Origin: Inonotus obliquus
Taxonomy: Eukaryota; Basidiomycota; Agaricomycetes; Hymenochaetales; Hymenochaetaceae
DNA: 64,000 nucleotides
NCBI GenBank assembly: GCA_032164295.1
Contig: JAJHTX010000012.1
Coordinates: forward strand, 1,302,001-1,366,000
Direction: 5' to 3'
Below are positions 39,481 through 64,000 of the stretch, in pieces. The notes under the pieces were generated by a model that saw only the letters and a program-made list of their open reading frames with translations, was not told the origin of the DNA and ran no database searches. The position numbers and the translations under genes were made by a program. Position 1 is the first letter of the stretch. The number at the start of each line of letters is the position of its first letter.

Positions 39481-40109
39481 ATGCCTAACGACATCAGTAG
39501 AGGTGATGAGCGTCTCCCTCCCAATTCGGACGAATCCAATAGTGCATCTGATACTCGAAAGTACGTAGACTAATTTGCGCACCATTCGGTTCTGACAAGT
39601 AGTACAGATGGTATAAAAACGAGGAATGGGTATATGGTTTCAATCTTAAGAACCGTTATCTTGCTCGCTTCGCCAAGAAATTTGACCTGCCATGGGAAAC
39701 GCATCCCGGTGCTGTCTTAAACACCGTCGAGCTGGTCATCAGGGCCACTTCCTGTGTCCACTTCAAAGCACGCTACCTGTATCATCGAGGAAGGCCTACG
39801 TTGATATTCTTTTTTGCGGAAGATGATGGTCGTAAGAGACTCAAGCGATCTACTATCGCAAAGGAAGATATGGACGAAGTTCGCAAGGCCATGTACCTTC
39901 CCAGGGGAATGAAGCCCAGATGGTATGACTGCCATGGACGTAATGTTGAAACTGATGACGCAGTGTCCAGTGGAGACGACGACTGGCCAACTGCAGATGA
40001 ACGAGGCGCAGACGAAAGTGATTCTGACAGCGAGGACGAGTGTGATTGCTTAAACGAAATGGATGATGAAGGTGCAGAATTGGGGAGCCACAGCAATGTC
40101 AAATCTTGA
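39481..40109 (+). CDS. Array gene A1 (type A, intact)
   Basis: Family not recognised. Two exons, 39481-39560 and 39608-40109, joined by a 47-nt phase-2 intron, give 193 aa. Exon 1 reads MPNDISRGDERLPPNSDESN, somewhat diverged from the other copies (which have KGVERLSLHSDES). The core starts WYKNEEWVYGFNLKNRYLAR and continues AKKFDLPWETHPGAVLNTVE. Then come RYLYHRGRPTLIFFFAEDDG, RKRLKRS, MDEVRKAMYLPRGMKPRWYD and a strongly acidic tail (SGDDDWP, DESDSDSEDECD) ending GSHSNVKS. No signal peptide or membrane span; probably nuclear or cytosolic. It lies just after the intact DUF2461 gene and before B1, making this the most complete module. Confidence 0.75.
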
Positions 40110-40543
40110 GTGGCCATGGAATTCTTTCGCAAATTGTTTAAACCTCAGATAGTATTAACGAGCCCGTTTCTTACGTAGAACAGAACTAAACTCTTGCCCT
40201 GTACAGTGGCTTTGTTATTTTTCTCATTCTGCTCCCCTTCTACACTTCTCAAGTGTATATGCTATTACTTTTTCATTTTCCTACCTCTCCACTCTCAAGT
40301 GCATGACTGTTACATGCCCGAGCGAAGAGCCACCAGGCGGTGGAATCATTCTACCACCTACTAAGTATTGCGCAACAATTCCACTCATGGCTCGGATTCA
40401 GGAAGCTCCAGTCCACAAGACGGCACAAGTAGTGCGCGCGTTGCTCACGATAACCACAACTATAAAGCCACGAAGAGGCGGTCCTATCGGCCACATTCAT
40501 TGCTTGTACTCATTCAACCACCTCTCAAAAGGAGACATTCGCC

Positions 40544-41159
40544 ATGTCGGACTCTGAAGTTATCCAGAAAGGCATCGAGCACCTCTCAATTCACAAGGAC
40601 GATATTAAGCATCACATGTGAGCTCACCAATTCCCTCGTCGTATTCGCCTAAATGGTATTCTACCACAGAGATGAGCATTGGGTATATGGCTTCCACCTC
40701 AAGCATCGCGTTTTTCATAAAGTCGCTCGAAAGCTTGGATTGTCATGGACAACGGATCCTGCTAGCGTTAGTGATGCTGTAGAGGACTATATCAGGGACA
40801 CATCCTGCATGCAGTATTCGCTCACCATAGCTTATCGTCGAGGAAGGTGTTGTTTGATCGCAACCTTCGCAGAAGACGATGGACGTAAGAGATCCGAAAA
40901 CATCAAGTTCTCTCCGCAGGCTATGGACCGAGTGCGGAGGGCGATGATGCTCCCGAAGGGAACACAACCCAAGTGGTATGACACCACCGGAGAGGAGCAG
41001 GACGTGAATACGGAACTCAGTAGCGATGATGAGGAGTGGCCAAACAATGAGATCGTGACGACGACTAGAGACAAGCTCATGAAGGAAGCGGGAGCCCTCG
41101 ATATAAAGACTTTTTCTGTGGATGAAGGAGTACCCATGGGCACTCTGATTGGATTTTGA
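40544..41159 (+). CDS. Array gene B1 (type B, intact)
   Basis: Family not recognised; sister of type A. Exons 40544-40617 and 40670-41159 give 187 aa. Exon 1 reads MSDSEVIQKGIEHLSIHKDD, and the phase-2 intron falls at the same place as in type A. The core is IDEHWVYGFHLKHRVFHKVA, then RKLGLSWTTDP, YRRGRCCLIATFAEDDGRKR, MDRVRRAMMLPKGTQPKWYD and ELSSDDEEWPNNE. The end EGVPMGTLIGF is the type B C-terminal signature. B has fewer acidic residues than A and a hydrophobic C-terminus instead of an acidic one. It starts 434 bp after A1 on the same strand. Confidence 0.75.
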
Positions 41160-41889
41160 GTGGCGGCTCGTTTTACCTTCTGCTTAACCTGCTCTGTTAT
41201 TTCCTCAATACGATGTTTCTACGTAGCTCGTTGCCAGTATATTCTATGGCCTTTGAATTGAGACTCCAGTATCCTTGTCATTCTCATGTCAGGTGGATCT
41301 CGATGGAGAATGAGGAAATCCGGAGCGTTGCCCTAACGGTGGAATAAGTGGTTTATGAGAAGTGAATTTCAATGCATACCGGGGACTGTCGTGGTTTTCA
41401 GCTCCATCCTTTGCTTGGCCTTGGCAGTGCCCTGCTTGTCTTTCTGTGTGACACCTTCTTAGTAAACTTGTTGCCGGTACAGCGCACTCCGGTTTGTCTA
41501 TGCCTTTCTGAATCATGGGTCCCATATCCTCGCGGCTCGGAATCATGCTGTGCTTTCTCATTTCAAGCTTGTATGAATGGTCCCCTGCGACGTTTAGCAT
41601 CTGCGTCTGACGCAGCCAACCAGCATTGGAAAAGGATTCGCGGTCGTGAGGATCTGTACATGGAGATAATCCTATCAAAGTTGACTTAGGAATGATTTTG
41701 CAGGGCAGGGCAAACTGGGACGGCGGTAGCGTCAGCAAGTAAGTTCGATCGCGAAGCGGTCAGAAAGAGGAACGGCTCCTTTTCTGTGTGACATCACCGT
41801 GACGTCCAGTCACGACCCAATCGATCTCTTTCATCACTTGCAACGCTTGTCCTTCCTACCTCAAACAATTTCACCTTTATACATGGACT
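41160..41889. repeat. Repeated 3' flank of type B genes
   Basis: No gene. Sequence resembling this flank follows B2, B3, B5 and B6 as well. A recognisable piece is the TGCATACC(C/G)G block with CTTTGCTT downstream. It therefore belongs to the duplicated unit, though the copies have diverged. Open frames here are not coding. Confidence 0.5.
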
Positions 41890-42245
41890 CTATTCGGACC
41901 TGGAGATAGTGTACTCAGAGATATTTGAGTTACAGACCATCAGGTGCGTGATGCTCCGAGTCGCCTTGCAATATCAATCCTTGTCCATACTAGAACACTG
42001 TTATAGTCTTTGGGGATAGCTCGTCGCTCCACCTGCGGCAAGCGATCGCAGACTCCGCTTTTGCTGAGCTTTTAGAGAGTTAAAACCCGGTCCCAAGGGT
42101 GGGCGACGCAACACTTTCGGAAGGGACGACGGACTGAAAATAACACCGAAGGGCATGGGTGCAGAATTCATAGCTCTCATCTTCACTCCAACGTTGCTGA
42201 CCTGTTGCGCGTAGGGACATCGATTTATTGAAATGTCGTTAGAAG
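41890..42245 (+). pseudogene. DUF2461 pseudogene fragment 1 (3' half)
   Basis: Matches the functional gene at about 38,300-38,680. Recognisable blocks are GAGTTACAGACCATCAG (intact: NELQTIR), CTGCGGCAAGCGATCGCAGA (LRQAISD), GCAACACTTTCGGAAGGGAC (RNIFGRD) and GCGCGTAGGGACATCGAT. The frame is broken, for instance by a stop within LLES and another after GRDDGL. The 5' half is missing. Confidence 0.8.
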
Positions 42246-42456
42246 CGACAAATAACTAGTTACCTTGGCTTCTCTTTTGCGTTGGATCGGCGACGATGTG
42301 AGGCGACGAAATACGCTTCATAGTGGGGAATCTTGCCATTAAATTACGTTGATATGTAAGTTACAAAGAAAGTTGCATGCATTATATGAACGTTAAAAGT
42401 TGCACATTGGCAGGAAAGATGCGATAGAGGTACGCTTGCAAAGCGGGGGAAAGGAA

Positions 42457-43560
42457 CTACTGACTTCGGTTTGTGTCAAGGAACTCTTCGGCATCCGGCA
42501 ACCCGTAGATGGCCTGAAGTACCTTTTTCATTTCGTCGTTACTTTTTTGCGTTCCCAGACTGAAATAGGACGTGCCAAAGTCTATAAACATTTCCTCCGC
42601 ATCAACTCTGCTGGCCTCAAGAGTCCTACGGGGCTCATTGGATCGTTCTGGGGTGTTGGTTTCCAGTTGCTCATCAGCATCAGTTGACCCTTTTGTTTCC
42701 GTTTCATCGTGGCCGTCTTCATCGTTTTCGCTGTCGTTTTCGCTGTCGTTTTCGCTGCCGTTGTCGTTGTCGTTGTTGCAGTTGTTGTCGTTGTTGTCGG
42801 CATCGTTACTGGCATAATCATGGTCACCGGATATCTGTTGATCTCCATCACCTTGCTCATCACATTCATTGGTTCCAGTATCGTCTGATCGAGTATCAGA
42901 GGAGGTCTCGGATTCTTCAGGAGGCCTGTATGTTGCATCTTGGTTTTTCGAGACTGGCTTCGTTCCAGTAATGTCTGGCGTAAACACTTTCCAAGCCCAA
43001 TACATGCCAGCAGCATAGATTCCAACCACCTTTATTTCCTCTGCTTTCTTCCCCTTCTCGAATTCCTTTCTGAAAAGCATGTCCACTTGTGCACGGAGAT
43101 CCGAGTACGCTTCGTTCAAACCCTTTTTTATATTCTGTTTGGACCTCTCATCGGCTAGGCGTTTTATCTCAAGCAATGCTCCAGTCTTCTGAATGACATA
43201 ATTGCTTCCTCGGGCTTGCGTGCGGGGAGAGTGTCGCTGTCGTTTTTCACCCACCAGCAGAAGTGTGAAGTCTGGTATGAGCCATACCTCGATATCGCTA
43301 TCATCATTACTGGTGACAGTTCTGGACACCCATCTCTGCGGGCATGGGATCAAGCATGTACTATGCTCGCAAAGCCGTGCTAATTCACAGGACCATATTC
43401 CATACCAATAATGTTCATGACCTCGATAAACTTCTCTGGGGTCCTTAACATCAGTTATGCCCTGTCGTCTTCGTTCTTGCTTGATATGTCCGAGGATTGG
43501 GTCCATTCCGACCTGCAGCTTTCGCAGCCACTTATCTGAAGTTGTCATTTCATCGGACAT
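42457..43560 (-). CDS. PD-(D/E)XK nuclease-like protein 1
   Basis: Seen: MSDEMTTSDKWLRKLQVGMD, then YRGHEHYWYGIWSCELARLC, LIPCPQRWVSRTV, LIPDFTLLL with Pro96-Asp97, and KTGALLEIKRLAD with Glu131-Ile-Lys133. This PD...ExK spacing after a beta strand is the active-site signature of the restriction-endonuclease-like fold. VVGIYAAGMYWAWKVFTPD follows. A long Asp/Asn/Glu-rich low-complexity region is encoded partly by a 12-bp tandem repeat. The C-terminal block reads GTQKSNDEMKKVLQAIYGLP. Length 367 aa from this Met; an upstream exon may exist. Known: fungal PD-(D/E)XK-like proteins of this general type are mostly uncharacterised. Catalysis is inferred. Divergent from A2 and paralogous to the gene at 61,333. 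Confidence 0.7.
   Translation of the reverse strand: MSDEMTTSDKWLRKLQVGMDPILGHIKQERRRQGITDVKDPREVYRGHEHYWYGIWSCELARLCEHSTCLIPCPQRWVSRTVTSNDDSDIEVWLIPDFTLLLVGEKRQRHSPRTQARGSNYVIQKTGALLEIKRLADERSKQNIKKGLNEAYSDLRAQVDMLFRKEFEKGKKAEEIKVVGIYAAGMYWAWKVFTPDITGTKPVSKNQDATYRPPEESETSSDTRSDDTGTNECDEQGDGDQQISGDHDYASNDADNNDNNCNNDNDNGSENDSENDSENDEDGHDETETKGSTDADEQLETNTPERSNEPRRTLEASRVDAEEMFIDFGTSYFSLGTQKSNDEMKKVLQAIYGLPDAEEFLDTNRSQ
42724..42770 (-). repeat. 12-bp tandem repeat coding Ser-Glu-Asn-Asp
   Basis: About three to four copies of a 12-bp unit (GAAAACGACAGC on the coding strand) give repeated SEND residues, merging into Asp/Asn-rich codons. It lies inside the disordered region of nuclease-like protein 1, which its paralogue lacks. 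Confidence 0.7.
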
Positions 43561-44290
43561 GTCTGGCTGAAAGAGAAAGGAAGTGAGTAGCATGAAAGCC
43601 TATAGTGAAATACAAGCAACGCACCAAGGAGTTGGATGATGCTAAAGGTTATCCTGGAAGGAGCAAGCTGAGCCGCTCATGCTTAGAAGATAATGCTTTT
43701 ATACATGCCCACGAAGACGTGGCTTAGACACCTTCCGGATTACTATGAGTCACACTTCACTTTCTACAGTGGTAATGGCGTGACTGTGGCCTTGTGCATG
43801 GTCACGCCTATTGTCACCCTCTGTGGACAGCCTCAGCTCTCTTTTCGATGTGGCCTTCACCCGAGTCAGAAAACGCTAAGCGACTCCCATTATTGGCCAC
43901 ACGTCGAGCTTACCACTTGCCCTTACTATGGCTGATTCATTCATTTTTTTAGCACTTCCGGTCAAAGATTTGGGTTCAATCTAGACACGAATTCCTTCAT
44001 GTACTGATGCTGTACGGCCCTTACATTATGCAACTAGACCCCGTAGCGTGCTACTGAAGCTGACGTATAATTATCTTTCTATTATACCTACTATTATAGT
44101 GTGTAGTGACTCAGCGAAATGAGTGCTACAAATATTGACAAATAGAGTATAGATCACGTGAATGTTTGGTTCAAGCCACCAACGACAAGCAATAAATATA
44201 AAGCGACCGTAATTCCGATCCCCCAACTTCTCACGTACACTCTTACTTACGACCCACTCTTTATCTCTGGCAAATTCCGCGGTTACAGAT
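43561..44290. promoter_or_regulatory. Divergent region between nuclease-like gene 1 and A2
   Basis: Contains CACGTGA near 44,155, GGTTCAAGCCAC at 44168-44179 and TATAAAG at about 44197-44203, which together look like the A2 promoter. No further gene. Confidence 0.5.
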
Positions 44291-44925
44291 ATGCCCAAGG
44301 ACATCACGAAAGGTGTCGAACGTCTCTCCCTCCATTCGGACGAGTCTACTAGCTCACAGCAAAAGAAACCCAGAGCCAAAAAGTATGTAAATTATTCTGC
44401 AGACTATTTGGCTCTGACAAGTACTTCAGATGGTACAAAAAAGAGGAATGGGTATACGGCTTCAATCTCAAGAATCGTTACGTTAGCCGCCTCGCCAAGA
44501 GATACAATCTACCATGGGATACGCATCCTGGTGCTGTCTTAACCACCGTGCAAACTATCATCGGGATCACTTCCTGCGTCATGTTCAGAGCGCGCTACCT
44601 ATATCATCGCGGAAGGCCAACGTTGATCCTCTTCTTTGCGGAAGACGATGGTCGTAAGAGACTCAAGCGATCCACTATCCCGAAGGAAGAGATGGACGAA
44701 GTTCGCAAGGCGATGTACCTTCCCAGGGGAACGAAGCCCAGATGGTATGATGTCCATGGAGGCGAAGTTGATAATAGGGATGCAGAGTCCAGCAGCGACG
44801 ATGACTGGCCAACTGAAGACGAACTGGATGCAGACGAGAATGATTTTGACAGAGAGGATGAGCTCGAAGGCAATATGCATGAAGGAGGTGCTGATTCAGG
44901 TGGCCACGGTATTGTGAAAGGATGA
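44291..44925 (+). CDS. Array gene A2 (type A, intact)
   Basis: Exons 44291-44382 and 44430-44925 give 195 aa. Exon 1 is MPKDITKGVERLSLHSDEST with a Lys-rich end. The core WYKKEEWVYGFNLKNRYVSR and the FAEDDGRKRLKRSTIPKEEM block are both complete. GTKPRWYDVHGGEV leads into the acidic tail ending GGHGIVKG. From about codon 8 on it is nearly identical to A6 (57,521) without indels, so the two derive from a recent duplication or conversion. It is divergent from nuclease-like gene 1 and followed by the broken B2. Confidence 0.78.
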
Positions 44926-45466
44926 ATGGCCACGGATTTCATTCGCGCAGCGTCACAAGCCTCAGATGGTCTGAGTAAGATCAGCTTTTCGCGTAAGCGT
45001 GTGCTATGTTCAGCGGCTGGAGCTTTCCCCTTTCTGCTTATTCTTCTCAATTACGAATAGTATATGCTGTGTTGCCAATACCTTGTCGTTTGATCATATC
45101 TCGAACGGATTGACCAACACCCTCACTTGGACTGAATGGGTTGACGGATCTGATGGCGAAAGCTAGTCTTTCCAGTCCAATGAACCCAGCCATACGTTGC
45201 GTGAACTGCATTGCGATCGCTGGCACGGCCCTTGGCAGAACCCCTGAAGTCCATATCCATGCAATCCGAAACCACAACACGATACTTTGGAGTAAAGCGA
45301 CCTGACCTATTCTGCTCATGGATAAGAAGCTCCAGACCACAAAACGAGCTTCTGTGTGCGTTTCTCACGGTAACCACGACATTAAAGCCACTTTGATCCG
45401 TTTCATTCGTTGCCTGTACATATTCATTCAACCACTCACAGGCACTCTCAAAAGGAGCTATCCACC

Positions 45467-46036
45467 ATGTCGGACTCGGGAGGTGTCCAACAAGGCGTCG
45501 AGCGCCTTTCACTCCACAATGACAATAAGGAATGGCGTCCGATGTGAGTTCACCAATACCCTCGTCATATTTGCCTAACATTCCACGACAGAGGGTATAC
45601 GGCTTCCGCCTCAAGCATCGTGTCATTCATAAAGTCACTCGAAAGCTTGGATTGCCGTGGAAAACGGACCCGGGCAGTGTCCTTGATTCCGTAGACGACC
45701 ATATTGGAGACACATCTGACGTGCCGCATTGGCTCACCACGATTTACCGTCGTGGACGGTGTTGTTTGGTTGTAACCTTCGCGGAAGACAATGATCGTAA
45801 AAAGTTCTGAGAAAATCAAATTCTCTCCCGAGGCTATGGACCGGGTGCGAAGGGCAATGAGGCTCCCGAAGGGAACGCAACCCAAGTGATATGACTCCTC
45901 CGCAAAAATGCAGGACGAGGGTACGGAACTCAGTAGCGATGACTCGGATGAGGAGTGGCCAAACAACAGAATCCTCACGAAAGCCGAAGACACTATCGAG
46001 CTCATGAGAAGAGCGGGAGTCTTGGATACAAACTAA
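45467..46036 (+). pseudogene. Array gene B2 (type B, broken)
   Basis: Exon 1 (MSDSGGVQQGVERLSLHNDN) is intact and nearly identical to B6. Exon 2 is damaged. About 9-11 bp coding for the NEHW residues are missing, so the acceptor runs into GGGTATACGG. An indel near 45,800 in GATCGTAAAAAG shifts the frame after FAEDNDRKK. The Trp codon of PKWYD is TGA (AAGTGATATGAC). The end EGVPRGALIGF is lost. Clearly a recent pseudogene. Confidence 0.85.
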
Positions 46037-47333
46037 AACCCTCGTCTCAACATGGCGGATGAATACCGAGAGGTTCTCTGATTGGATTGTAGGTGGTGGC
46101 TTGTTTCACTTTCTCCTTAACATGCCCCGTTATTTCTTCAATTCGAAGTCTCCACGTAATTCGTCATGTCTATCTTCTTTTTACTATTGCTTTGGAATTT
46201 TGAAATCTCTTGATGTTTTTGCCTCTTCGCACTCTGCTCGCGTCCTTCGGACTACGGAGATAGTCGAATGTGACGGTGCATACTGTTTTACGGTATGGTT
46301 TAGCAATCGTTTCTTGAGAACCCTAGCTCTCTAGATCTGGAATAAATGGGCTCTGAAAGGGAACGTCAGTGCATATCCGACACTATCATGGCATTTACCC
46401 TTGCCCTTTGCTTACTAGTGTTTCGACCGCATTCGCATGGCCTAGATGGAAGGAAAATACGGCCGTATGCTAAGAGGAGGCAGTACATAGAGTTGCTCAA
46501 TGTACTTCGGATAACCCTGGGCACACACTGTAAGACGTTCTCGGATGTCAGGACAGTTGAGGGCTGGAAAATGGGAATATTCCGAAGTACAATCGGATGT
46601 CGTGCCTATAGGGGTGAGTCCCGACAATATTCGCAATGGTTTCCGTAACTATAACTTACTTCATGTTACCTTCGACAGGATTTTTCCGGTATACTATTGA
46701 ACTTCGGTGAGCAGGAAAGAGCTCTGCAATAATTTGGGAACTGATTATGGCGGGATACGGTGTAAATTGCGCCTCACACATGAGCGGCCCGTATGCACAT
46801 AACTCCTCAACCTCAAAGTCTCGGATATGTGGTCGGAGAATATTGCTTACCATTGCTCGGTCTTATTTACGGTAGATTTCATGCTCAGTACCAGCGGGAT
46901 CTGATTCCATCCTTGCGATTTTGATTGTGGGTCCCCGGTGTACTCCCGGCTTAGATTGTTGTCCGTGTTTTAATTGGTAGAAGTGTTTTGGTCCAACGCA
47001 ACAATATCTGCATGTGTGCAAAGCTCCAAGACGCAGCCATCCTGGGTAGATCGTTCGTGATCCTGAGATTGCACATGAAAAATGGCTCACTCAGTTTAGT
47101 CCTAGGAATGCTACATAGGATTATTTGGTTTTGGTCGACTTGGATCACTGGTAGCACTGGGTGGGAAACGAAACAAACGGTTGAGGTGAAGACAAATCCA
47201 CTTTTCCGGTGACATCGTGTTGAGTCACGGTCCAACGTCACGGCAATCAGCGTCTTGACTCTTGAGTCGGATTCTTGACCTTCATCACCTGCGAGGGCAA
47301 CGCAGCCCTTCTCTAGCTCAGTCTTTTCTCATC
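46037..47333. repeat. Repeated 3' flank and spacer after B2
   Basis: Related to the flanks after the other type B genes. The 100-codon frame at 46,346 has no homologue in the equivalent flanks and is not counted as a gene. The right end (47,210-47,333) resembles sequence before the other DUF2461 fragments, with GTGACATC and CAACGCAGCCCTT. Confidence 0.45.
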
Positions 47334-47760
47334 ATGGTAGGAAGGAAATGCGAGGACGACGGTGAATAATCCTAGCGGTAGCAACACCAGGACCGAGTCG
47401 ACTTTCAGATCCTGAAATACGTACGCTGCAGGACGGAAGCAAACATATCAGGAGCAATTCCGAGAACTACACAGAGATCAACGAGGACAGGAGTATCGCA
47501 TATACTGAAGAGAAGGAAGATGTTATGATCCAGCTGGATAAGGGCGTGCTGGACGACCTCGGCTTTGACGATGCACGTTGTGAGAGAATCTGCTTGTCAG
47601 CGGAACAGTCGTACAAGTCGCGGTATGCCTCAATAACATTCATTTGTTATCCGGCACTGACAACAGCCTTAATTTCCTTCTGGTCAGTATCCCAGAGTAT
47701 ATTGAACTTCTTGAACCATTTGTGAAATCATTATAATGACGGGACATTTCACAGAACAAA
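47334..47760 (+). pseudogene. DUF2461 pseudogene fragment 2 (5' half)
   Basis: Equivalent to the first exons of the gene at 37,175. It keeps GATAAGGGCGTGCTGGACGA, coding DKGVLDDLGFDDA for LNSDTLDDPDFDA, and an exon beginning CCTTCTGGTCAGTATCCCAG, which matches the exon that encodes PSGQISQN. The frame breaks repeatedly. The fragment ends at a sharp junction, AACAAACATCGACAAATAG, which leads straight into the A3 promoter. Confidence 0.8.
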
Positions 47761-47780
47761 CATCGACAAATAGAGGTATG

Positions 47781-47790
47781 CTCACGTGAG
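47781..47790. promoter_or_regulatory. CTCACGTGAG palindrome before A3
   Basis: A 10-bp palindromic E-box 76 bp upstream of the A3 start. The same word precedes A4 (50756-50765), and a one-base variant precedes A5. CACGTG is a bHLH target; regulatory use is inferred. Confidence 0.45.
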
Positions 47791-47865
47791 TATCTTTGCG
47801 ACTTGCGATCACCGTGCTGCTTCATTCGACCCACTCTTTCTCGTACAGACTCCGCAGTTACAAAC

Positions 47866-48505
47866 ATGCCTAAGGTTATCAGAGAAGGTATCGAAACCTC
47901 TCCCTACAATTGGACGAATCCAATAGTTCAAAGCAACAGAAGCCCCAACCCAAAAAGTACGTAAATTATACCGCGCACTGATTGGCTCTGACAAGTACTT
48001 CAGATGGTACAAAAATGAGGAATGGGTATACGGTTTCAATCTCAAGAATCGCTACGTTAGTCGCCTCGCCAAGAGATACAATCTACCATGGGAAACGCGT
48101 CCTGGTGCTGTCCTACCCACCGTACAAACTATCATCAGGATCACCTCCTGCGTCCGCTTCAGAGCGCGCTACCTATATCATCGCGGAAGGCCAACGTTGA
48201 TCCTCTTCTTTGCAGAAGACGATGGTCGTAAGAGACTCAAGCGATCCACTATCCCGAAGGAAGAGATGGACGAAGTTCGCAAGGCGATGTATCTTCCTCG
48301 GGGAACGAAACCCAGATGGTATGATGTCCATGGACAAAAGCTTGAAAAGGATGATGTAGAGTCCAGTAGCGACGATGACTGGCCGAGTAGTACAGACGAA
48401 CTAGACCGAGATGCGTATTATTTCGACGACAGGGAGGAGAGTGAAGCTGAAATGGATGGAGAAGATGGTGCCGGATCAGGAAGCCACAGTAATGTCGAGG
48501 ATTGA
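47866..48505 (+). pseudogene. Array gene A3 (type A, exon 1 frameshift)
   Basis: Exon 1 (47866-47956) is 91 nt, where the intact copies have 92. One base is lost after codon 10 (GAACGTCTCTCC in the others, GAAACCTCTCC here), so MPKVIREGIE runs out of frame before the intron. Exon 2 (48004-48505) is perfect and codes WYKNEEWVYGFNLKNRYVSR through FAEDDGRKRLKRSTIPKEEM and an acidic tail ending GSGSHSNVED. Total length is not a multiple of three. It may be a very young pseudogene, or exon 2 may be reached from another start. Confidence 0.75.
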
Positions 48506-48890: not shown

Positions 48891-49533
48891 ATGTCGGACT
48901 TGGAAGAAATCCAGAAAGGTATCGAGCAACTCTCAGTCTACAATGACTATAATGACATTAAGGACTGGCATGCAATGTGAGTTCACGAATACCATCGCCC
49001 GTGTTTGCCTAATATTCTACCACAGAAACGAGCACTGGGTATATGGATTCCATCTCAAGCATCGCATCATTCGTAAGATTGCTCGAAAGCTTAGATTGCC
49101 ATGGGAGTCGAATCCAGGTGGCGTTCTTTATACTGTAGATGAACATATTGGGAACACATCAGGCGTGCCGTATTGGGCCACCATAGTTTATCGTCGTGGA
49201 CGGAGTTCTTTGATCGCTACCTTCGCGAAAGACGATGGACGTAGGAGGTCTGAGAGAATCAAGTTCACTCCCGAGGCTATGGACCGGGTGCGAAGGGCAA
49301 TGAGGCTTCCGAGGGGAACGAAACCCAAGTGGTATGACACCACCGGAAAGGAGCAGGACGGGGAAACGGAACTCAGTAGCGATGATGAGGAGTGGCCGAA
49401 CAACGGGATCCTCACGAGGACCGAAGACACTATCGAGCTCATAAGAAGAGCGGGAGCCTTGGATGCGAACAGAAACCCTTGTCTGATCATGGCGGATGAA
49501 GGGGTACCCAGAAGTGCTCTGATCGAGTTTTAA
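48891..49533 (+). CDS. Array gene B3 (type B, intact)
   Basis: Exons 48891-48976 and 49026-49533 give 197 aa. Exon 1 MSDLEEIQKGIEQLSVYNDY is three codons longer than in B5 and B6 (NDIKDWHA). The core INEHWVYGFHLKHRIIRKIA, the block YRRGRSSLIATFAKDDGRRR, and GTKPKWYDTTGKEQDGETEL are present, and the C-terminus is EGVPRSALIEF. The usual E in FAEDDGRKR is K here (FAKDD). It follows the frameshifted A3 by 385 bp, so in this pair only B is intact. Confidence 0.75.
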
Positions 49534-50837: not shown

Positions 50838-51472
50838 ATGCCTAAGGACATCAGGAAAGGTGTCGAACGCCTCTCCCTCCATTCGGACGAGTCCAATAGC
50901 CCACAGCAATGTAAATCGAAAGCCAAAAAGTACGTAAACTATTCTGCGCAATAATGGGCTCTAACAAGTACTTCAGATGGTATAAAAACGAGGAATGGGT
51001 GTACGGCTTCAATCTCAAAAATCGTTACGTTAGTCTCCTTGCCGAGAGATACAATTTACCATGGCAAACGTATCCTGGTGCTGTCTTGCACACCGTGCAA
51101 ACTATCATTGAGGCCACTTCCTGTGTCCAGTGCAGAGCGCGCTACCTATACCATCGCGGAAGGCCTACGTTGATTCTCTTTTTTGCGGAAGATGATGGCC
51201 GTAAGAGACTCAAGCGGTCATACATCCCGAAGGAAGAGATGGACGAAGTTCGCAAGGCGATGTATCTTCCCAGGGGAACGAAGCCCAGATGGTATGATGT
51301 CCATGGACAAAAGCTTGAAAAGGATGATGCTGAGTCCAGTGGAGATGACGATTGGCCAACTGAAGATGAACTGGATGAGGACGAGAATGATTCTGACAGC
51401 GAGGATGAATGTGAAGGCAAGATACACGAAGGAGGTGCAGGATCAGGGAGCCACAGCAATGTCAAAGGATGA
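50838..51472 (+). CDS. Array gene A4 (type A, intact, no B partner)
   Basis: Exons 50838-50929 and 50977-51472 give 195 aa. Exon 1 is MPKDIRKGVERLSLHSDESN. The core WYKNEEWVYGFNLKNRYVSL and then AERYNLPWQTYPGAVLHTVQ are intact, followed by FAEDDGRKRLKRSYIPKEEM, GTKPRWYDVHGQKLEKDD, and an acidic tail ending GSGSHSNVKG. The type B gene expected about 400-550 bp downstream is absent; a MITE and unrelated sequence stand there instead. Confidence 0.78.
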
Positions 51473-51706: not shown

Positions 51707-51988
51707 TACTGTACTCCGGTGTGAGTAGGCAACCTCCTTGGGAAGTGTTACATTCGCGTCGCCTCAAATTGATGCAGCCGCACCGGTGTTATGCGTTTCA
51801 GGCCACCGAACAAGCAACCAAAGGACATCATCTTGTGGCTTTTGTGTGTACTGGGTCGAGAGGCCACACACAAAGTAATATTTAATGCTCGAAACTCATG
51901 CAACCGTCATTGTGTTACACGTTACTGAAGCGACGCAACCGACCCCGTGTTACGCGTTACGGTTGCCTACTCACACCGGAGTACAGTA
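51707..51988. mobile_element. MITE with perfect 28-bp terminal inverted repeats
   Basis: Positions 51707-51734 and 51961-51988 are exact reverse complements over 28 nt; the left one begins TACTGTACTCCGGTGTGAGT. The outermost bases are TA on both sides, so a Tc1/mariner-like TA target duplication is possible, leaving a 278-bp element. The interior has no open frame for a transposase and contains palindromic GTTACGCGTTAC-like words. It is non-autonomous. A degraded relative lies at about 25,466-25,687. Confidence 0.85.
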
Positions 51989-52535: not shown

Positions 52536-53170
52536 ATGCCTAAGGACATCAGGAAAGGTGTCGAACACCTCTCCCTCCATTCGGACGAGTCCAATAGCCC
52601 ACAGCAACAGAAATTCAAACCCAAAAAGTACGTAAATTATACTGCGCACTGATTGGCTCTCGTTTTTATACCATCTGAAGTACTTGTTAGGAATGGGTAT
52701 ACGGTTTCAATCTCAAGAATCGTTACATTTCTCGCCTCGCCAAGAGATACAATCTGCCTTGGGAAACGCGCCCTGGTGCTGTCTTACACACCGTTGAACT
52801 TATCATCAAGGCCACCTCATGTGTTCGCTTCAGAGTGCGCTACCTATACCACCGTGGAAATGCTACGTTGATCATCTTCTTTGCGGAGGACGATGGCCGC
52901 AAGAGACTTAAGCATGCTTTCGTCCCAAAGGAAGAGATGGATGAAGTGCGTAAAGCCATGTATCTTCCCAGGGGAACGAAGCCTAGGTGGTATGATGTCC
53001 ATGGGCGTAAGGTTGAAAACAACGATGCAGAGTCCAGTGGAGACGATGACTGGCCAACTGAAGATGAACTGGATGCGGACGAGAATGATTCTGACAGAGA
53101 GGATGAGCTCGAAGGCGAAATGCATGAAGGAGGTGCTGATTCAGGTGGCCACGGTAATGTGAAAGGATGA
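52536..53170 (+). pseudogene. Array gene A5 (type A, broken by micro-inversion)
   Basis: Exon 1 (52536-52627, MPKDIRKGVEHLSLHSDESN) and the bulk of exon 2 (52691-53170, from EWVYGFNLKNRYISRLAKRY onward) would be fully functional. Between them, 52659-52690 is the exact reverse complement of the corresponding 32 bp in A4, covering the end of the intron, its acceptor and the codons for WYKNE. The inverted piece happens to end in TTAG, a possible new acceptor, but its use would shift the frame. The tail ends GGHGNVKG. Confidence 0.85.
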
Positions 53171-53691: not shown

Positions 53692-54317
53692 ATGTCGGAC
53701 TTGGAAGGTGTCCAACAAGGCGTCGAGCGCCTCTCGCTCCACAATGACACAAAGGAATGGCATCCGATGTGAGTTCACCAATACTCTCGTCGTACTTGCC
53801 TAATAGTATTCTACACCATAGAAACGAGCATTGGGTATATGGCTTCCACCTCAAGCATCGTGTCTTTCATAGAGTCGCTCGAAAGCTTGGCTTGCCATGG
53901 ACAACGGATCCGGGCAGTGTTAGTGAAGCCGTAGATGACCATATTGGGGACACATCCGGCGTGCCGTATTCGCTCACCACAGTTCATCGTCGTGGACGGT
54001 GTTCTTTGATCGTTACCTTCGCGGAAGACGATGGACGTAAGAGGTCTAAGAAGATAAAGTTCTCTCCGCAAGCTATGGACCGAGTGCGGAGGGCGATGAG
54101 GCTTCCGAAGGGAACGCCACCCAAGTGGTATGACACCACCGGAAAGGAGCAGGATGGGGATACGGAACTCAGTAGCGATGATGAGGAGTGGCCGAATAAT
54201 GAGATTATGACGACGACTAGAGACACTATCGAGCTCATGGAGCAAGCGGGAGCCTTCAAGAAGACGACCTATTCGGTGGATGAAGGGATACCCAGAGGTG
54301 CTCTGATTGGATTTTGA
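53692..54317 (+). CDS. Array gene B5 (type B, intact)
   Basis: Exons 53692-53768 and 53822-54317 give 190 aa. Exon 1 MSDLEGVQQGVERLSLHNDT; core INEHWVYGFHLKHRVFHRVA, then RKLGLPWTTDPGSVSEAVDD, HRRGRCSLIVTFAEDDGRKR, MDRVRRAMRLPKGTPPKWYD, ELSSDDEEWPNNE and the C-terminus EGIPRGALIGF. The second half is almost identical to B6, while the middle differs more, as expected of gene conversion. It follows the broken A5 by 521 bp. Confidence 0.77.
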
Positions 54318-57064: not shown

Positions 57065-57520
57065 GCTTGACGTGGTGCTTTGGGATGCCTGGCTCCAGTG
57101 CATCGTCTGCTTCCTTTCTTCCTTCGATTGTACACGCTGTGGTCATATCACTGTACCATAGAGAGTATAATACAAGTTGTTTTGCATCTTACCATCTGAT
57201 AACATGTCTTGAAAAATCTGACAATGGGCTCCATGTCTTGTATATTTCGAAATACTTGTCAAAATTGACAAGTATTGTACGTATTGCCAATATATATCAC
57301 CCTAATAAATGTGATGACAATTTGATGTACAAGCCTTCTACATATTTTACATATTACTTATCTGGTTTTACATTCTCAGATCGTGCACTTTTTTGTGATG
57401 ATACTATATTAAGCAAGAGTTGAAACTCCGATGGAAAAAGCCTTTCGTTGTGAGAATTGCCAGTCCCCAAAGCGGCTGTTATTACCTGCTCTTTATCTTA
57501 CAAAGTCCTCAGCTACAAGC
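57065..57520. other. AT-rich spacer before A6
   Basis: AT-rich sequence with no gene. The promoter of A6 does not resemble that of A2, although the coding parts are nearly identical, so the duplication breakpoint lies near the start codon. Confidence 0.45.
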
Positions 57521-58155
57521 ATGCCTAAGGACATCAGGAAAGGTGTCGAACGTCTCTCCCTCCATTCGGACGAGTCTACTAGCTCACAGCAAAAGAAACC
57601 CAATGCCAAAAAGTATGTAAATTATTCTGCAGACTATTTGGCTCTGACAAGTACTTCAGATGGTACAAAAAAGAGGAATGGGTATACGGTTTCAATCTCA
57701 AGAATCGTTACGTTAGTCGCCTCGCCAAGAGATACAATCTACCATGGGAAACGCATCCTGGTGCTGTCTTAACCACCGTGCAAACTATCATCGGGATCAC
57801 TTCCTGCGTCATGTTCAGAGCGCGCTACCTATATCATCGCGGAAGGCCAACGTTGATCCTCTTCTTTGCGGAAGACGATGGTCGTAAGAGACTCAAGCGA
57901 TCCACTATCCCGAAGGAAGAGATGGACGAAGTTCGCAAGGCGATGTACCTTCCCAGGGGAACGAAGCCCAGATGGTATGATGTCCATGGAGGCGAAGTTG
58001 ATAATAGGGATGCAGAGTCCAGCAGCGACGATGACTGGCCAACTGAAGACGAACTGGATGCAGACGAGAATGATTTTGACAGAGAGGATGAGCTCGAAGG
58101 CAATATGCACGAAGGAGGTGCTGATTCAGGTGGCCACGGTATTGTGAGAGGATGA
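57521..58155 (+). CDS. Array gene A6 (type A, intact)
   Basis: Exons 57521-57612 and 57660-58155 give 195 aa. Exon 1 MPKDIRKGVERLSLHSDEST; core WYKKEEWVYGFNLKNRYVSR; FAEDDGRKRLKRSTIPKEEM; GTKPRWYDVHGGEVDNRD; tail ending GGHGIVRG. It differs from A2 at only a handful of bases across the gene, and the following 540 bp spacer is equally close, so the copy is recent. Confidence 0.78.
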
Positions 58156-58696
58156 ATGGCCACGGATTTCATTCGCGCAGCGTCACAAGCCTCAGATGGT
58201 CTGAGTAAGATCAGCTTTTCGCGTAAGCGTGTGCTATGTTCAGCGGCTGGAGCTTTCCCCTTTCTGCTTATTCTTCTCAATTACGAATAGTATATGCTGT
58301 GTTGCCAATACCTTGTCGTTTGATCATATCTCGAACGGATTGACCAACACCCTCACTTGGACTGAATGGGTTGACGGATCTGATGGCGAAAGCTAGTCTT
58401 TCCAGTCCAATGAACCCAGCCATACGTTGCGTGAACTGCATTGCGATCGCTGGCACGGCCCTTGACAGAACCCCTGAAGTCCATATCCATGCAATCCGAA
58501 ACCACAACACGATACTTTGGAGTAAAGCGACCTGACCTATTCTGCTCATGGATAAGAAGCTCCAGACCACAAAACGAGCTTCTGTGTGCGTTTCTCACGG
58601 TAACCACGACATTAAAGCCACTTTGATCCGTTTCATTCGTTGCCTGTACATATTCATTCAACCACTCACAGGCACTCTCAAAAGGAGCTATCCACC

Positions 58697-59322
58697 ATGT
58701 CGGACTCGGGAGGTGTCCAACAAGGCGTCGAGCGCCTCTCACTCCACAATGACAATAAGGAATGGCATCCGATGTGCGTGCACCGATATCCTCGCCGTAC
58801 TTGCCTAATAGTATTCTGCACCATAGAAACGAGCATTGGGCATATGGCTTCCACCTCAAGCATCGTGTCATCCATAAAATTGCTCGAAAGCTTGGATTGT
58901 CATGGAAATCGGATCCAGGTGGTGTTCTTGATATCGTGGATGACCATATCGAGGACACCTCCGGTGTATGGTATTGGAACACCATAGTTCACCGTCGTGG
59001 ACGGTGTTCTTTGATCGTTACCTTCGCGGAAGACGATGGACGTAAGAGGTTTGAGAAAATCAAGTTCTCTCTCGAGGCTATTGACCGGGTGCGGAGGGCG
59101 ATGAGGCTCCCGAAGGGAACGAAACCCAAGTGGAATGATACCACTGGAAAGCAGCAGGACGGGGATACGGAACTCAGTAGCGATGATGAGGAGTGGCCGA
59201 ACAATGAGATCATGACGACGGCTAGAGACACTATCGAGCTCATGGAGCAAGCGGGAGCCTTCAATACGACGACCTATTCGGTGGATGAAGGGATACCCAG
59301 AGGTGCTCTGATTGGATTCTGA
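58697..59322 (+). CDS. Array gene B6 (type B, intact)
   Basis: Exons 58697-58773 and 58827-59322 give 190 aa. Exon 1 equals that of B2 (MSDSGGVQQGVERLSLHNDN). Exon 2 reads INEHWAYGFHLKHRVIHKIA (the usual V of WVYGF is A), then RKLGLSWKSDPGGVLDIVDD, HRRGRCSLIVTFAEDDGRKR, a GTKPKWND motif where other copies have WYD, and EGIPRGALIGF. Sequence identity with B2 stops near 58,770, and from about 58,990 it matches B5 instead, so the gene looks mosaic. Confidence 0.77.
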
Positions 59323-60057
59323 GTGGCGGCTCATTTCACCTTCTGCTTAACATGCCAGTGCCCCGTTAGTTCTTCAATGCAATGCTTCTACGTAGTTCGT
59401 TGCCTGTATCTTCCATGGCCTTTGAATCATAGAGTCGAGGTTCGAGTGCCCTTGTCCTTCTCATGTCAGATGAATCTCAATGGAGAATGGGGAAATCCCG
59501 AACGTTGCTCTGGCGTCGAAATAAATGGTCTTTGGCAAGTGAGCGTCGATGCATACCCGACAGTGTCATGGACTTTTGCTCACCAATTCTCTTCATGATA
59601 TCCAATAAACTCGTCGCATGTAAGTTCTGTTCCCATCTATTCCGATATACTCCCAGTTCTGCAACAGAGTTCTTATCGTCGTTTGGAAGAAATGGGCCGA
59701 GAAGTAGATCAATATTAATGCAACGACGGCCGTCTGCGCATGTGTAACCTGAGGGTATCCTAGGGATGGGATAGCATCAAGACCGTGACGCAGTCATCCG
59801 GCATTGGGTAGACCATTTGTGATCGTAAGGATTTGTATGTACGGTCCTGTTCTATGTAATGTTGACAAGGTCGACTTGGACTCGGACATTCAATACTGAT
59901 GGCTGTAGCGCAGCAGGAAAACTGTGGTGACGAGCGTGTCAAGTCACGTACCAACGTCACAGCAATTGATCAATCTGTATCTTTCCCTTCATCGCTTCAT
60001 CGCTTCTTGCAATGCCACCCTTCTTACGAGTCCATAGCAGCTTCGTTTCTTAATATG
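59323..60057. repeat. Repeated 3' flank after B6
   Basis: Same family of flank as after the other type B genes (GCATACCCGACAGTGTCATG). Its right end resembles the sequence before the other DUF2461 fragments (GTCACGTACCAACGTCACAG). No gene. Confidence 0.45.
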
Positions 60058-60860
60058 CGAAGAAATGAGAAGACGATGAAGGATACTTCTGGTAGCAGCA
60101 ACGCTAGGAGGGCCGAGTCCAAGTCCTGGAATGATCATACGCTCTATGACGGAAGCAAACGCAAGAACGAATCTGCGAGCTATACAGAGACTGGTAAGGA
60201 TGAGAGTACCGGAAAGAAGGAAGACGATGCGATTTCTCTGGATAGGTGCATGCTTGATGACTTTGACTTTGGCGGGTTAGCTTGTAAGAGAAGTCGTGTA
60301 TAAAGGTTTTACAGATCACGGTGTGTCTCAATCTATTCGTTCTGCGACATCCTGATTGCGTCGACAGGACATGGTGTGTTTCTGTGCGAATGGATACAAA
60401 AATGCCAATGTCGTGGGTAGCTAGGCTTGAGCTTCGCGGTGATTCCACCTTCTGCAATTGCTCAGCAACAGGCGATTTTTTCCTTACAGAGCCTGTGAAT
60501 CAACTCGTGGAGAAGGAATGGAAGTACTTTATTCGCAGAAACTGATTCATGAGGACCACCCCTAGCACCTATTGACGTAGTGCATCGCATCTATCGAGGC
60601 GTTCGATTAGTAACGACAAAGACAGCGTACAAGGCGAGCATATCTATATCTTCTCGCGGGTATTTGCTGATTGTTCGTGCTGTAATATGCAGACGGGCAA
60701 CATTTTTGGAAGGGACGAACAGGTCTTAAAGACGGTATGTAAGACTCGCGAGTTCGTGTTTCGACACCTTTCATTTCAGTCCGCTGATTTCACAGTTCCT
60801 TTTCTAGCTTTACGGTTAATGTTCCTTATCACTCTTCTTGACGTCTGAGTGATACTGATG
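60058..60860 (+). pseudogene. DUF2461 pseudogene fragment 5 (longest)
   Basis: Covers most of the intact gene in shortened form. It keeps the N-terminus (MRRNEKTMKDTSGSSNARRA for MARNSKVKKTSNGNG), DAISLDRCMLDDFDFGG for VISLNSDTLDDPDFDA, and CATCCTGATTGCGTCGACAG. Next comes EPVNQLVEKEWKYFIR, then GCATCGCATCTATCGAGGCG (YRIYRDV) and GGCAACATTTTTGGAAGGGA (NIFGRD). A stop follows the Lys/Arg-rich segment, another follows YFIRRN, and introns are eroded. It precedes nuclease-like gene 2, as fragment 1 precedes nuclease-like gene 1. Confidence 0.83.
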
Positions 60861-61332
60861 GATACCACTCTTGATGGTGAGGCACTTTGTGGGTTGCTGA
60901 CCACCGTTTCTTGAGATCGGATACCCGTATCATCAAGCCAATGCCGGAATGCGAGAAAGCCACCAATCTATATATCCTTAAGCTACTGCGTCGTTGCATC
61001 ATGGGTTATCCCGAATCACAATGAAGGGAATCCGCAGCAAATCAAGTGAGTGGACGAAGGTGCTGGACTCGGCGAGGTGATGGTTTTTATCATATCGTAA
61101 AATTGATTTCAGCTCGGCATTCAATTGCGCATTGATACATGAAATATTTCAAGATTACAACATTTTTTGCGCCATGCATAAGACATACGACATGGAAGTT
61201 AAACAAACAAAATCACGTTGGAAGAATATGTGGTAGCAGCAATACCGGTGCCGCTGTGTGACCTCAGAAGTGTCAGTCTTCCCTTCGGCGACATTAGCAG
61301 GAACTTTTACAATAGGCAAAGAACTACTCACT
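60861..61332. other. Spacer between DUF2461 fragment 5 and nuclease-like gene 2
   Basis: No gene is seen; 3' side of the minus-strand nuclease-like gene. Confidence 0.4.
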
Positions 61333-62178
61333 CTAGCGTGCGTTACCGAACATGCGCAAGGATCCGTGCAAGTTGAAAATCGCCTCCAGCATTTCTTGCA
61401 TCGCAATGTCACTTTCGGGGGTTCCAAGTTCGTAACTTATCAATATCTCCTGTTGTTCATGCTCTTCCTCTTCTTCGGGAGGAGCATAGGTGGCGTCCTT
61501 ATTTACCGAGAGTGGCTTGATCCCCAAGTTGTCCGGATTATATACCTTCCATCCCCAAAATTGACCAGAGGCATATATGCCCACCACCTCCCTCTTCTTC
61601 TTCCGCCTCTCACTTGGCTTGCTGAAGAAGAGCCTCACTTGTTGAATAAGGTCAATTCTTGCCTCGAGAAGTCCTGCTTCAATTCCATCGAATGTGTCAC
61701 TTTCAGGTGGAGGCTTTATCTCCGCAAACGCAACATATTTCTGATGAACAAGAGCCCCAGTATGATTCGGACCTGGCTCCGGCTGATCATGCACTTGATC
61801 TTGAGCCTGAGAGACACCGGGCCCCTTTGGCTTCCGTGCTGAGCGGCGGGTGGGTTGGGCTGATGACCGAGCTTTACGACGTGCCTCTGAAACACGGATC
61901 AGTGTGAAATCTGGAACCAGGCAGCGTTCCTCCGTGGTTTGATCTTGGTTGCGAACAACACTTGTTATCCAGCGCTGCGGGCATGGCACCAAGGTCGTAG
62001 TGTAATCGCATAGCTTAGCCAATACACAGTTCCATACCGAATACCAGAAATGCTCCTGGCCACGATATTTCCTATATGTTGGTTGCTTCCGTCGCTCATC
62101 GATATGCTTGAGGATTAGACGCATTTCCAGCCTGAGCTTCTGTTGCCATTTATCAGTAGCCAACAGAACATCAGACAT
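61333..62178 (-). CDS. PD-(D/E)XK nuclease-like protein 2
   Basis: Seen: MSDVLLATDKWQQKLRLEMR, then YRGQEHFWYSVWNCVLAKLC, LVPCPQRWITSVV, CLVPDFTLIRVSE with Pro89-Asp90, a Lys/Pro-rich insert, and YVAFAEIKPPPES with Glu153-Ile-Lys155. VVGIYASGQFWGWKVYNPDN and the end IAMQEMLEAIFNLHGSLRMF correspond to those of protein 1. About 281 aa from this Met. An upstream exon ending DTSSSQ with a GTGCGC donor could add residues (acceptor TATGCAG|TTCACAATAGAC). It lacks the long acidic repeat of protein 1. Catalytic residues of the PD-(D/E)XK fold are kept in both, so a nuclease or nuclease-derived role is likely. Divergent from gene C. Confidence 0.7.
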   Translation of the reverse strand: MSDVLLATDKWQQKLRLEMRLILKHIDERRKQPTYRKYRGQEHFWYSVWNCVLAKLCDYTTTLVPCPQRWITSVVRNQDQTTEERCLVPDFTLIRVSEARRKARSSAQPTRRSARKPKGPGVSQAQDQVHDQPEPGPNHTGALVHQKYVAFAEIKPPPESDTFDGIEAGLLEARIDLIQQVRLFFSKPSERRKKKREVVGIYASGQFWGWKVYNPDNLGIKPLSVNKDATYAPPEEEEEHEQQEILISYELGTPESDIAMQEMLEAIFNLHGSLRMFGNAR

Positions 62179-62760
62179 GTCTATTGTGAACTGCATACAA
62201 ACAGGTTGAAGTATTATGGCATGCTCGACCAAAGTCAGAGTAAGGAAGCGCACCTGAGATGATGAAGTATCCAAGAATGGGACAAAGTTGGTTCAGCAGC
62301 TGGTTTGCTTACACTGTGAAGAACAAAGGTTGAAAGGAGGTAGTTACATATCAATTCGCTAGATTCAGGCTTTTTATTCGTTCCAGAGTGATGTGGCTTC
62401 TGCCACACTTAGGCCCATGTGTACGTTCCCAAAAGATTTCAGCGAGACACTAAAATTGCCGGATTGGAATTAATGTGGATTCAATGCTGAAGGAATTGTT
62501 ATCTGTGGCTGTCACTTGTAGACTTAAGAAAGGTGGCAGCCGTGTGTAATATGAGATACATATATTGGTGCTGTGGCTTGCCATTCAGGAGTTCATTGCC
62601 ATTTCAGCTAGGTCTACCCCCCGAGATACGTAAACGTGACGGAAGTTTATCAGGTCACGGGACCATAGGTTCCAAGCCACAGCGAATGGTATAAAATCAA
62701 CCAAGTTCAGGTTCTCCCACCCACTCACCAACCCTCATACTCTACGACCCATTGAACGTC
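62179..62760. promoter_or_regulatory. Divergent region between nuclease-like gene 2 and C
   Basis: Contains GGTTCCAAGCCAC (62668-62680), one inserted base away from the A1 and A2 element, and TATAAAAT at 62690-62697, 64 bp before the C start. No other gene. Confidence 0.5.
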
Positions 62761-63452
62761 ATGGCCGAGCATATCCAGAAAGGCGTAGAACATCTTTCCA
62801 TCCACCCAGATGAGTCGAGCAAAAAACTTACGTACGTAAAGCATGTCTCCTGTTTTCTGGTTGAGCTCTGATCGCTCCTTAAAGCCCGTTAAAGTGCATG
62901 CCCAAGGAATGGGTTTATGGATTCCACCTGAAGAACAGGATTGTCCGTCGCTTTGCCAGAAAGTACAATCTTCGATATCGCACCGCGAGTTTTGATACCC
63001 TATGCCGTGTGAGTGACCATATCATGGCCGTCTCTGGTGTTTGGTTCAGAGTCCGTGCGATCTCCTCTCGCGGAAGATCAAGCCGGGTCCTCTTCTTCGC
63101 GGAAAGCAAACAAAAAAGTCTCCAGAACCTCCGATTCACGAAAGACGAGATGGACAAAGTACGACAGGCCATGGAGTTGCCTGAAGGAACAGAGCCAAAA
63201 TGGTACGAGGTCAGCGAAAATTACACCGCTGAGGAGGAAGAAGGACGCAGCAGTGATGATTCGGAGTGGGACTCAGATAATCCGGGGCGCGGCTCTGCAA
63301 AGAGGTACGCGGATGTGTACGACAGTGATAGCGATTGCTGCATGAACAGTGACGGGGACTGCGACTGCGACTGCGAGAGTGACGAGATAGAAGTAGAGGG
63401 CGAAGCTGAGGGGGACAGGAAGTCTAATTGTGAGACCACAGTCATTAGGTGA
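62761..63452 (+). CDS. Array gene C (diverged member, intact)
   Basis: About 205-210 aa. Exon 1 MAEHIQKGVEHLSIHPDESS keeps the family motif. The intron is at the same site but phase 0 (TAC|GTAAAG), and two acceptors are possible, before CMPKEW or before EW. The core EWVYGFHLKNRIVRRFARKY mixes type A (KNR, KYNL) and type B (GFHLK) features. LFFAESKQKSLQNLRFTKDE replaces the DDGRKR block; PEGTEPKWYEVSENYTAEEE and an Asp/Cys-rich tail (DSDSDCCMNSDGDCDCDCES) follow. It sits opposite nuclease-like gene 2 just as A2 sits opposite gene 1. It may represent an older lineage of the family. Confidence 0.72.
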
Positions 63453-63839
63453 ACAGCTACTGGGTATCTGGGATTGGGTCATGTACTTACAGTTGCGCAA
63501 GAACTTGCTCTTCTTTGACCTGTTTCTATTATTCTATTATAATTCGTGTCTTTCTACGTGTGGATCAACGTGACAATGGAAGATTTTTACTCGTGGCCCA
63601 TCTTATGCGTCTGGCGTTAGGAACAGCCACTGTTTTTTTTTCATCTAAGCGATTATGCGAGGATTTTATCTGGTGATTAAACAGCCCGAACCATGAAACT
63701 GCAAAGTCGTCTCACAATACTCGTAACAATGCTGGGCACCTTTGAAGCCACAAACAGAACAGGTAATCCTCATTAAAAATTCTGCTTGTCCTCAATTCAC
63801 CACTGTTTCGAAACCGGGCAAGCCCTAACTAGAGAAACG
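63453..63839. other. Spacer between C and the last B copy
   Basis: No gene is seen. The sequence does not obviously match the A-B spacers of the array. Confidence 0.4.
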
Positions 63840-64000
63840 CCTATCGTGTCGGAAGCTATCCCTCCATCCACACTGACGATAAGGAGTCGCATCGGAAGTG
63901 AGTTCACCAGTATCCTCGCCATAATTGCCTAATATTCTATCATAGAAAAGAGCACTGGGTGTACGGCTTCCACTTCAAGCATCGCACCATTCATAAAATC
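63840..64000 (+). pseudogene. Array gene B7, 5' part, runs off the window
   Basis: Exon 1 is shortened and has GTG in place of the ATG (GTGTCGGAAGCTATCCCTCC). The type B intron follows (GTGAGTTCACCAGTATCCTC to ATCATAG). Exon 2 begins KEHWVYGFHFKHRTIHKI and leaves the window. No start codon is visible, so it is probably a pseudogene, although the missing part could change that view. Confidence 0.6.

Follow-up and report, generated by a model that had tools for sequence, protein, structure and literature searches.

What is a tandem array of small sister genes for, and which of the genes lying among its copies belong with it? The question is raised by contig 12 (JAJHTX010000012.1) of the genome of Inonotus obliquus (36.07 Mb, 30 contigs), from which a window of 64,000 nucleotides (positions 1,302,001-1,366,000) was analysed. 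Thirteen members of one family (A1-A6, B1-B6 and C1) were found on the forward strand between window positions 39,481 and 64,000, and a second orphan family, D, has four copies, all of them in the same stretch of approximately 100 kb, with D1 and D2 within 39481..64000. Here it is tentatively proposed that the locus is a lineage-restricted module of two families, in which nuclease D would be accompanied by antidote or guide partners from the first family (A, B, C, E and F, jointly called ABC), and which expanded where it stands through tandem duplication. What speaks most for D and ABC belonging together is that the same duplications also carried a neighbouring DUF2461 gene, whose copies have decayed, while the D copies have been kept, with four of four frames open.

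Two orphan families in one array

Two-exon models without an early stop were obtained for 11 of the 13 ABC members in the window, A3 and A5 needing unusual splice sites and B2 and B6 being broken. The short first exon carries the motif (K/Q)G(V/I)E(R/H)LS, degenerate in A1 and A3, and the second encodes the core, with the motifs WVYGF..., FAEDDGRKR and GTKPKWYD, as well as the tail. Core identity to the reference copy is 77-100% in A, 69-84% in intact B and 61-84% in intact C, a within-group likeness that, judged from the sequences, exceeds chance; A and B cores are ~45% identical. In an unrooted tree of 27 proteins, B was split off with an ultrafast bootstrap (UFBoot) support of 99, C with 95 and the A group with 96. 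The number of members, the motifs, the two-exon model and the A-to-B gaps of 385-541 bp (434, 541, 385, 521 and 541 bp in the five pairs of the window) agree with a preliminary description of this DNA. The description also had A and B alternating as pairs, which applies to five of the six A genes, but A4 lacks a B and is directly followed by A5. It counted one broken B, which is B2 (the core is divided between two frames, with stops), and one cut by the window end, which is B6; however, B6 is broken as well, having no ATG-plus-splice model and being frameshifted past the window end in a translation read by eye. Likewise, the GALIGF-like end given as fixed in B is present in the four open B genes of the window and in B11 and B12 past it, but not in B8-B10. 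A3 and A5 may be broken genes. In A5, a micro-inversion at ~52659-52690 spans the intron acceptor (flipped back, 72 bp match A4 at 92% identity instead of 64%), and the new acceptor within it may keep the gene open. A MITE-like (miniature inverted-repeat transposable element) insertion with perfect 28-bp terminal inverted repeats lies at 51707-51988, in the interval from A4 to A5, a place expected to hold a B.

The 40 kb of sequence past the window were read for further copies. The main array continues for 18 kb, to 82.1 kb in window-continued coordinates, and reaches 26 copies and fragments, with C2-C6, B7-B9 and E1 followed by an inverted block of X1 and B10-B12. Four distal members (F33, F42, F37 and F35) lie at 1.432-1.440 Mb, about 50 kb further on, giving a total of 30 ABC copies and fragments, in which a 28-residue scrap at 77.9 kb is not counted and the assignment of E1 and X1 is based on a lower similarity. 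Broken copies are B2, B6, B7, C3 and X1. All ABC and D copies found are confined to 1.342-1.441 Mb of contig 12, ~100 kb of the 36-Mb genome; whole-genome searches with A, B and a Fomitiporia protein gave no ABC outside this stretch, the counts being lower bounds, and those for D gave no further copy. Past the window, C stands in for A before B. A B comes next after nine of the 12 A or C genes (5/6 A and 4/6 C); in these nine pairs the A or C frame is always open (A3 and A5 with the unusual splice sites), B is broken in three (B2, B6 and B7), and B8 and B9 are shortened. The constant pairing had been taken to suggest that the two products cooperate or oppose each other; this is weak, since the pairs look like the outcome of tandem duplication, B is broken in a third of them and C replaces A past the window. 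The head-to-head D genes within the same coordinates are a better candidate for a partner.

All four D genes face the first ABC gene of a sub-array in head-to-head orientation, at 730 bp for D1-A2 (counted from the ATG of the 42457..43560 frame), 582 bp for D2-C1, 515 bp for D4-F35 and 2.5 kb for D3-B12. The distal unit of F and D4 shares only ~30-40% identity with the main array but has the same gene order, so the linkage of D and ABC looks old. The D proteins have 252-407 aa and share 34-46% identity over 225 gap-free columns, with E49, P96-D97, E131-I132-K133 and Q158 invariant in the four copies. PD-(D/E)XK nucleases are marked by an acidic residue in a helix, followed by (P)D and, after that, by (D/E)xK; the order E...PD...ExK of all four D copies fits this signature, the helix position of E49 being guessed. 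The VRR_NUC profile (PF08774) aligned with residues 69-139 of D4, spanning PD and ExK, in this one copy of the four and below the cut-off (E 0.14; 12.6 bits against 23.8). Because no significant profile match to any PD-(D/E)XK member family was obtained, D is termed nuclease-like and not filed as a member, although a PD-(D/E)XK nuclease is what its residues most likely indicate, with moderate or low confidence. The single-sequence AlphaFold2 (AF2) model of D1 had a predicted local distance difference test score (pLDDT) of 38. No D relatives were found in a search of 5.8 billion proteins, in which 4,432 candidates with shared words were scored, and the best match of the D profile to PDB sequences had E 1.7. 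Other candidates for D were taken as chance: the hits to PD-T4-6 of PADLOC (E 0.034) and to RNase E of NCBIfam (E 0.042), which involve one copy of four and overlap the low-complexity acidic insert of D1, and that to 2OG-FeII_Oxy_2 (E 0.034, D3).

As the preliminary description had it, the ABC family is an unrecognised one: profile searches gave no significant match in Pfam, PHROGs or PDB, and the only relatives found, by an alignment-based protein search, are FOMMEDRAFT_148562 (E 6e-32) and FOMMEDRAFT_149664 (E 3e-31) of Fomitiporia mediterranea (Hymenochaetaceae). With B4 alone as query, the protein homologue search, which works through shared words, returned no protein at E ≤ 1. No relatives of ABC or D were found in viral contigs or in bacterial and archaeal genomes, and the ABC family is not named in the titles and abstract openings of the open-access literature surveyed. 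The proteins have a basic core of ~100 aa and an acidic tail, with a charge of +1 to +15 in the core and -4 to -30 in the tail in 27 of the 27 sequences surveyed, which include the two Fomitiporia proteins and leave out the broken copies. The core was modelled by AF2, from the exon-2 frame of B4, as beta-alpha-alpha-beta-beta-alpha-beta, and among the structure matches listed most were alpha/beta plaits (NikR, PII, ACT domains, SPOR and Mex67). A ferredoxin-like plait is predicted for the core with moderate or low confidence, and the tail is probably disordered. With the same model, the best match in BFVD had E 0.022, none reaching E ≤ 0.001, and RRM families were absent from the Pfam matches of 10 ABC cores at E up to 1. 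Matches of the ABC profile to ribosomal uS13/RPS18 (E 0.77-1.1) and release factor 3 (E 0.49), as well as those to AfAlkA TBP-like (E 0.08-0.11), PSP (0.059), DUF7224 (0.098) and phrog_1875 (E 0.044), were either limited to one member or near chance, and were discounted as chance. Most likely, ABC are nucleic-acid-binding proteins.

Growth of the array and selection on its genes

The gene left of A1, identified as DUF2461 at E 2.8e-24 through one exon piece, is the parent of relics found throughout the array. Two overlapping stretches over this gene gave 13 and 15 matches to the array; as a control, 14 further stretches of 2.58 kb on the left side of the gene were searched, 13 being without an array match and one (window 23221-25800) having a single match at E 1e-7. 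Relics precede A3, A5, C2, C4, C5, E1, D1 and D2, the one before A4 was called by resemblance to the relics of A3 and at 60 kb, and an inverted one lies at 86.4-86.6 kb in window-continued coordinates. Because the relics recur through the array, the repeated block was probably the DUF2461 gene, (D), A or C, and B, and the A-B pairs look like the product of a tandem block duplication that dragged the DUF2461 gene along. The relic at 60 kb contains an open frame of 82 aa, which may be a new gene out of a decayed passenger or chance.

Two long tracts, both with abrupt ends, are nearly identical between copies. The tract 44289..45488 is 94-100% identical per 100 bp to ~57.52-58.72 kb (A6 to exon 1 of B5), dropping at its right edge to 60-88% and having no homology on its left. 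The tract at 64.67-65.67 kb matches ~71.4-72.4 kb (window-continued coordinates; the spacer and the start of C2 and C5) at 97-100% over ~1 kb and is set within homology that is older and amounts to 76-95% per 100 bp on either side. The latter is the pattern that gene conversion leaves, and the former has such homology on the right only. Together with the relics and the broken copies, these conversion-like tracts bear out the duplication, decay and conversion that had been described. An assembly artefact of a single A-B pair, named beforehand as what would undo the description, is ruled out by the distinct flanks and by the divergence between copies (pairwise synonymous divergence of 0.03-0.96 inside A, B or C), although the near-identical tracts of ~1 kb could hide a local assembly error. 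Just past the main array, a hAT dimerisation domain was found (E 3.5e-9; L011 7502-7891, reverse strand), as well as, by eye, a LINE-like (long interspersed nuclear element) sequence in the region 97.5-102.7 kb (L012).

The ratio of nonsynonymous to synonymous change (dN/dS) of the core was 0.13-0.25 within A (15 pairs), 0.12-0.53 within B (36 pairs) and 0.15-0.42 within C (10 pairs), in a set of 20 of the ~30 copies that left out the broken, distal and E copies. ABC is thus under purifying selection, its coding sequence being constrained, and positive selection was not seen, the ratio being below 1 in 61 of the 61 within-group pairs. The mean dN of helix 2 and strand 2 in B is 0.24, about four times the 0.06-0.07 of strand 1 and the C-terminal part, with 0.11-0.18 between; mean dN is lower than mean dS in every segment of B, and the constraint is relaxed in helix 2 and strand 2. 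Genes of conflict or recognition, which the pattern had suggested earlier, are not borne out by these ratios, though helix 2 and strand 2 of B evolve faster.

Additionally, the element TCACG(T/G)GA was found upstream of 12 of the 26 starts examined (A2-A4, C1-C6 and B10-B12), at 81-212 bp from the ATG, and not upstream of D1-D3. The window has 14 matches to it against 4.85 expected, palindromes being counted twice, and common descent accounts for much of this excess.

Features of the array and its neighbourhood (window positions unless given in Mb of contig 12)
Feature	Position	Strand	Remarks
A1	39481..40109	+	exons 39481-39560 and 39608-40109; 193 aa; degenerate exon-1 motif
B1	40544..41159	+	187 aa
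D1	42457..43560	-	single exon, 367 aa; PD-(D/E)XK-like; long acidic Asp/Asn-rich insert; other in-frame ATG at 43593
A2	44291..44925	+	195 aa
B2	45467..46090	+	broken; end approximate
A3	47866..48505	+	exon 1 out of frame compared with A4; needs a donor site 4 bp downstream to be open
B3	48891..49533	+	197 aa
A4	50838..51472	+	195 aa; no B after it
A5	52536..53170	+	acceptor site inside a ~30-bp in-place micro-inversion
B4	53692..54317	+	190 or 195 aa depending on acceptor; structure predicted from the exon-2 frame
A6	57521..58155	+	195 aa
B5	58697..59322	+	190 or 195 aa depending on acceptor
D2	61333..62178	-	single exon, 281 aa; PD-(D/E)XK-like
C1	62761..63452	+	212 aa
B6 (start)	63847..64000	+	by eye; continues past window; broken
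D3	1.3866 Mb		
D4	1.4403 Mb		
DUF2461 gene	37175..38960	+	left of A1; extent approximate; parent of the relics
DUF2461-gene relic	42032..42240	+	74% to 38447-38670; between B1 and D1
DUF2461-gene relic	47345..47747	+	upstream of A3
Other DUF2461-gene relics	50.3-50.8 kb; 52.28-52.42 kb		
DUF2461-gene relic	60055..60633	+	before D2; open 82-aa frame at 60055-60300
TCACGTGA element	44154..44161		137 bp upstream of A2; also at 47782 (A3) and 50757 (A4)
TCACGGGA element	62655		upstream of C1

What the two families may do together

In the tentatively preferred reading, the ABC genes would encode small nucleic-acid-binding proteins, in which the acidic tail and nucleic acid compete for the basic core, and the D genes would encode PD-(D/E)XK nucleases, transcribed divergently from the first ABC gene (D1-A2, D2-C1, D3-B12 and D4-F35). 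ABC proteins would be the cognate partners of D, binding either D or its nucleic-acid substrate, and this binding would restrain or direct the activity of D, giving a nuclease with an excess of small antidotes or guides. The module might act against mobile DNA or be a selfish killer element. Nucleic-acid binding, the interaction of D with ABC, the antidote or guide role and the biological purpose are all inferred.

Close behind stands the possibility that ABC are lineage-specific small nuclear nucleic-acid-binding proteins whose family, for reasons of dosage or sub-functionalisation, grew through birth and death of copies, with D and DUF2461 as functionally unlinked passengers of the duplicated block. 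The DUF2461 relics show that passengers were carried, ABC shows purifying without positive selection, five copies are broken, and dN/dS, uninformative for D with synonymous change saturated among its copies, gives no firm sign of selection on that family. However, while the DUF2461 copies decayed, all four D frames stayed open and, at an identity of only 34-46%, retained their residues of catalytic type unchanged, which is hardly passenger-like.

A more specific form of the nuclease-partner module, considered doubtful here, is an undescribed two-component fungal conflict system in which each divergent D would have its own sub-array of small bipolar proteins (D1-A, D2-C, D3-B12-type and D4-F) as cognate antidotes or guides, growth and conversion producing new specificities. 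Such a system would perhaps serve in genome defence or be a spore killer of basidiomycetes, and to our knowledge no nuclease/antidote array of this kind has been described before in Hymenochaetales.

It is improbable that the array is a locus of self/non-self recognition or allorecognition (heterokaryon incompatibility, HET), in which A/C and B would be the variable partners of recognition. An array with conversion-like tracts and the relaxed helix 2 and strand 2 of B would suit such a locus, and lineage-specific genes of Neurospora are reported to cluster with HET genes (PMC10684091), but dN/dS is below 1 throughout and ABC has no significant domain of any kind. Quite improbable, too, is a remnant or domesticated mobile element, in which D would be a transposase or homing nuclease of PD-(D/E)XK type and ABC an accessory: two protein families were duplicated jointly, and hAT and LINE sequences lie just past the main array, but no dispersed copies were found, the copies of both families being confined to one 100-kb stretch, and the blocks carry relics of a local host gene, which points to segmental duplication (no search was made for terminal repeats of the unit). 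A part of the mating-type locus, with paired sister genes as in HD1/HD2, is largely refuted, even if paired, duplicated genes in a probable basidiomycete recall it, by Homeobox_KN matches on contigs 1 and 7, STE3 on contig 9 and none of these on contig 12, and by the absence of any homeodomain match in Pfam for the ABC family.

Should D prove to be a nuclease with ABC as its partner, the locus would be a compact system of conflict or defence made up of two orphan families, in a fungal group from which we know of no described killer or antidote. Otherwise, it is still a clear case of the birth of an array, in which the block of a known host gene was duplicated in place, the host copies decayed and two orphan families were retained.

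Comparison with known systems

The two Fomitiporia proteins are true homologues, having the common core motifs and the acidic tail; they are uncharacterised, and two copies were found there against ~30 here. Ferredoxin-like and RRM-like plaits (Mex67, ACT, PII and NikR) have the order beta-alpha-beta-beta-alpha-beta, which the predicted ABC model may share. D has an order of acidic residue, PD and ExK like that of the VRR_NUC branch, although its profile match is not significant.

Acidic tails that autoinhibit DNA- or RNA-binding domains are known, and the accessible text of PMC10250230 describes D/E-repeat proteins such as HMGB1 as having a nucleic-acid-binding core and a strongly acidic, disordered tail. 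The ABC tail is likewise acidic; however, no match in sequence or fold to HMGB1-type proteins was found, and the binding of nucleic acid by ABC is putative.

Among fungal systems, the Spok spore-killer genes of Podospora, which are selfish, offer a close parallel. In the portions of two reports available (PMC6660238, PMC9972908), Spok is a multicopy family with a pseudogene and gene conversion between copies, which combines a resistance function with a PD-(D/E)XK nuclease domain needed for killing. The locus described here is alike in being multicopy, with PD-(D/E)XK-type residues in D and with decayed copies and conversion-like tracts in ABC. As far as those accounts go, Spok joins coiled coil, nuclease and kinase in one polypeptide, whereas here a separate nuclease-like D, with no kinase match in Pfam, stands beside a small basic/acidic family of many copies; the locus is not a Spok.

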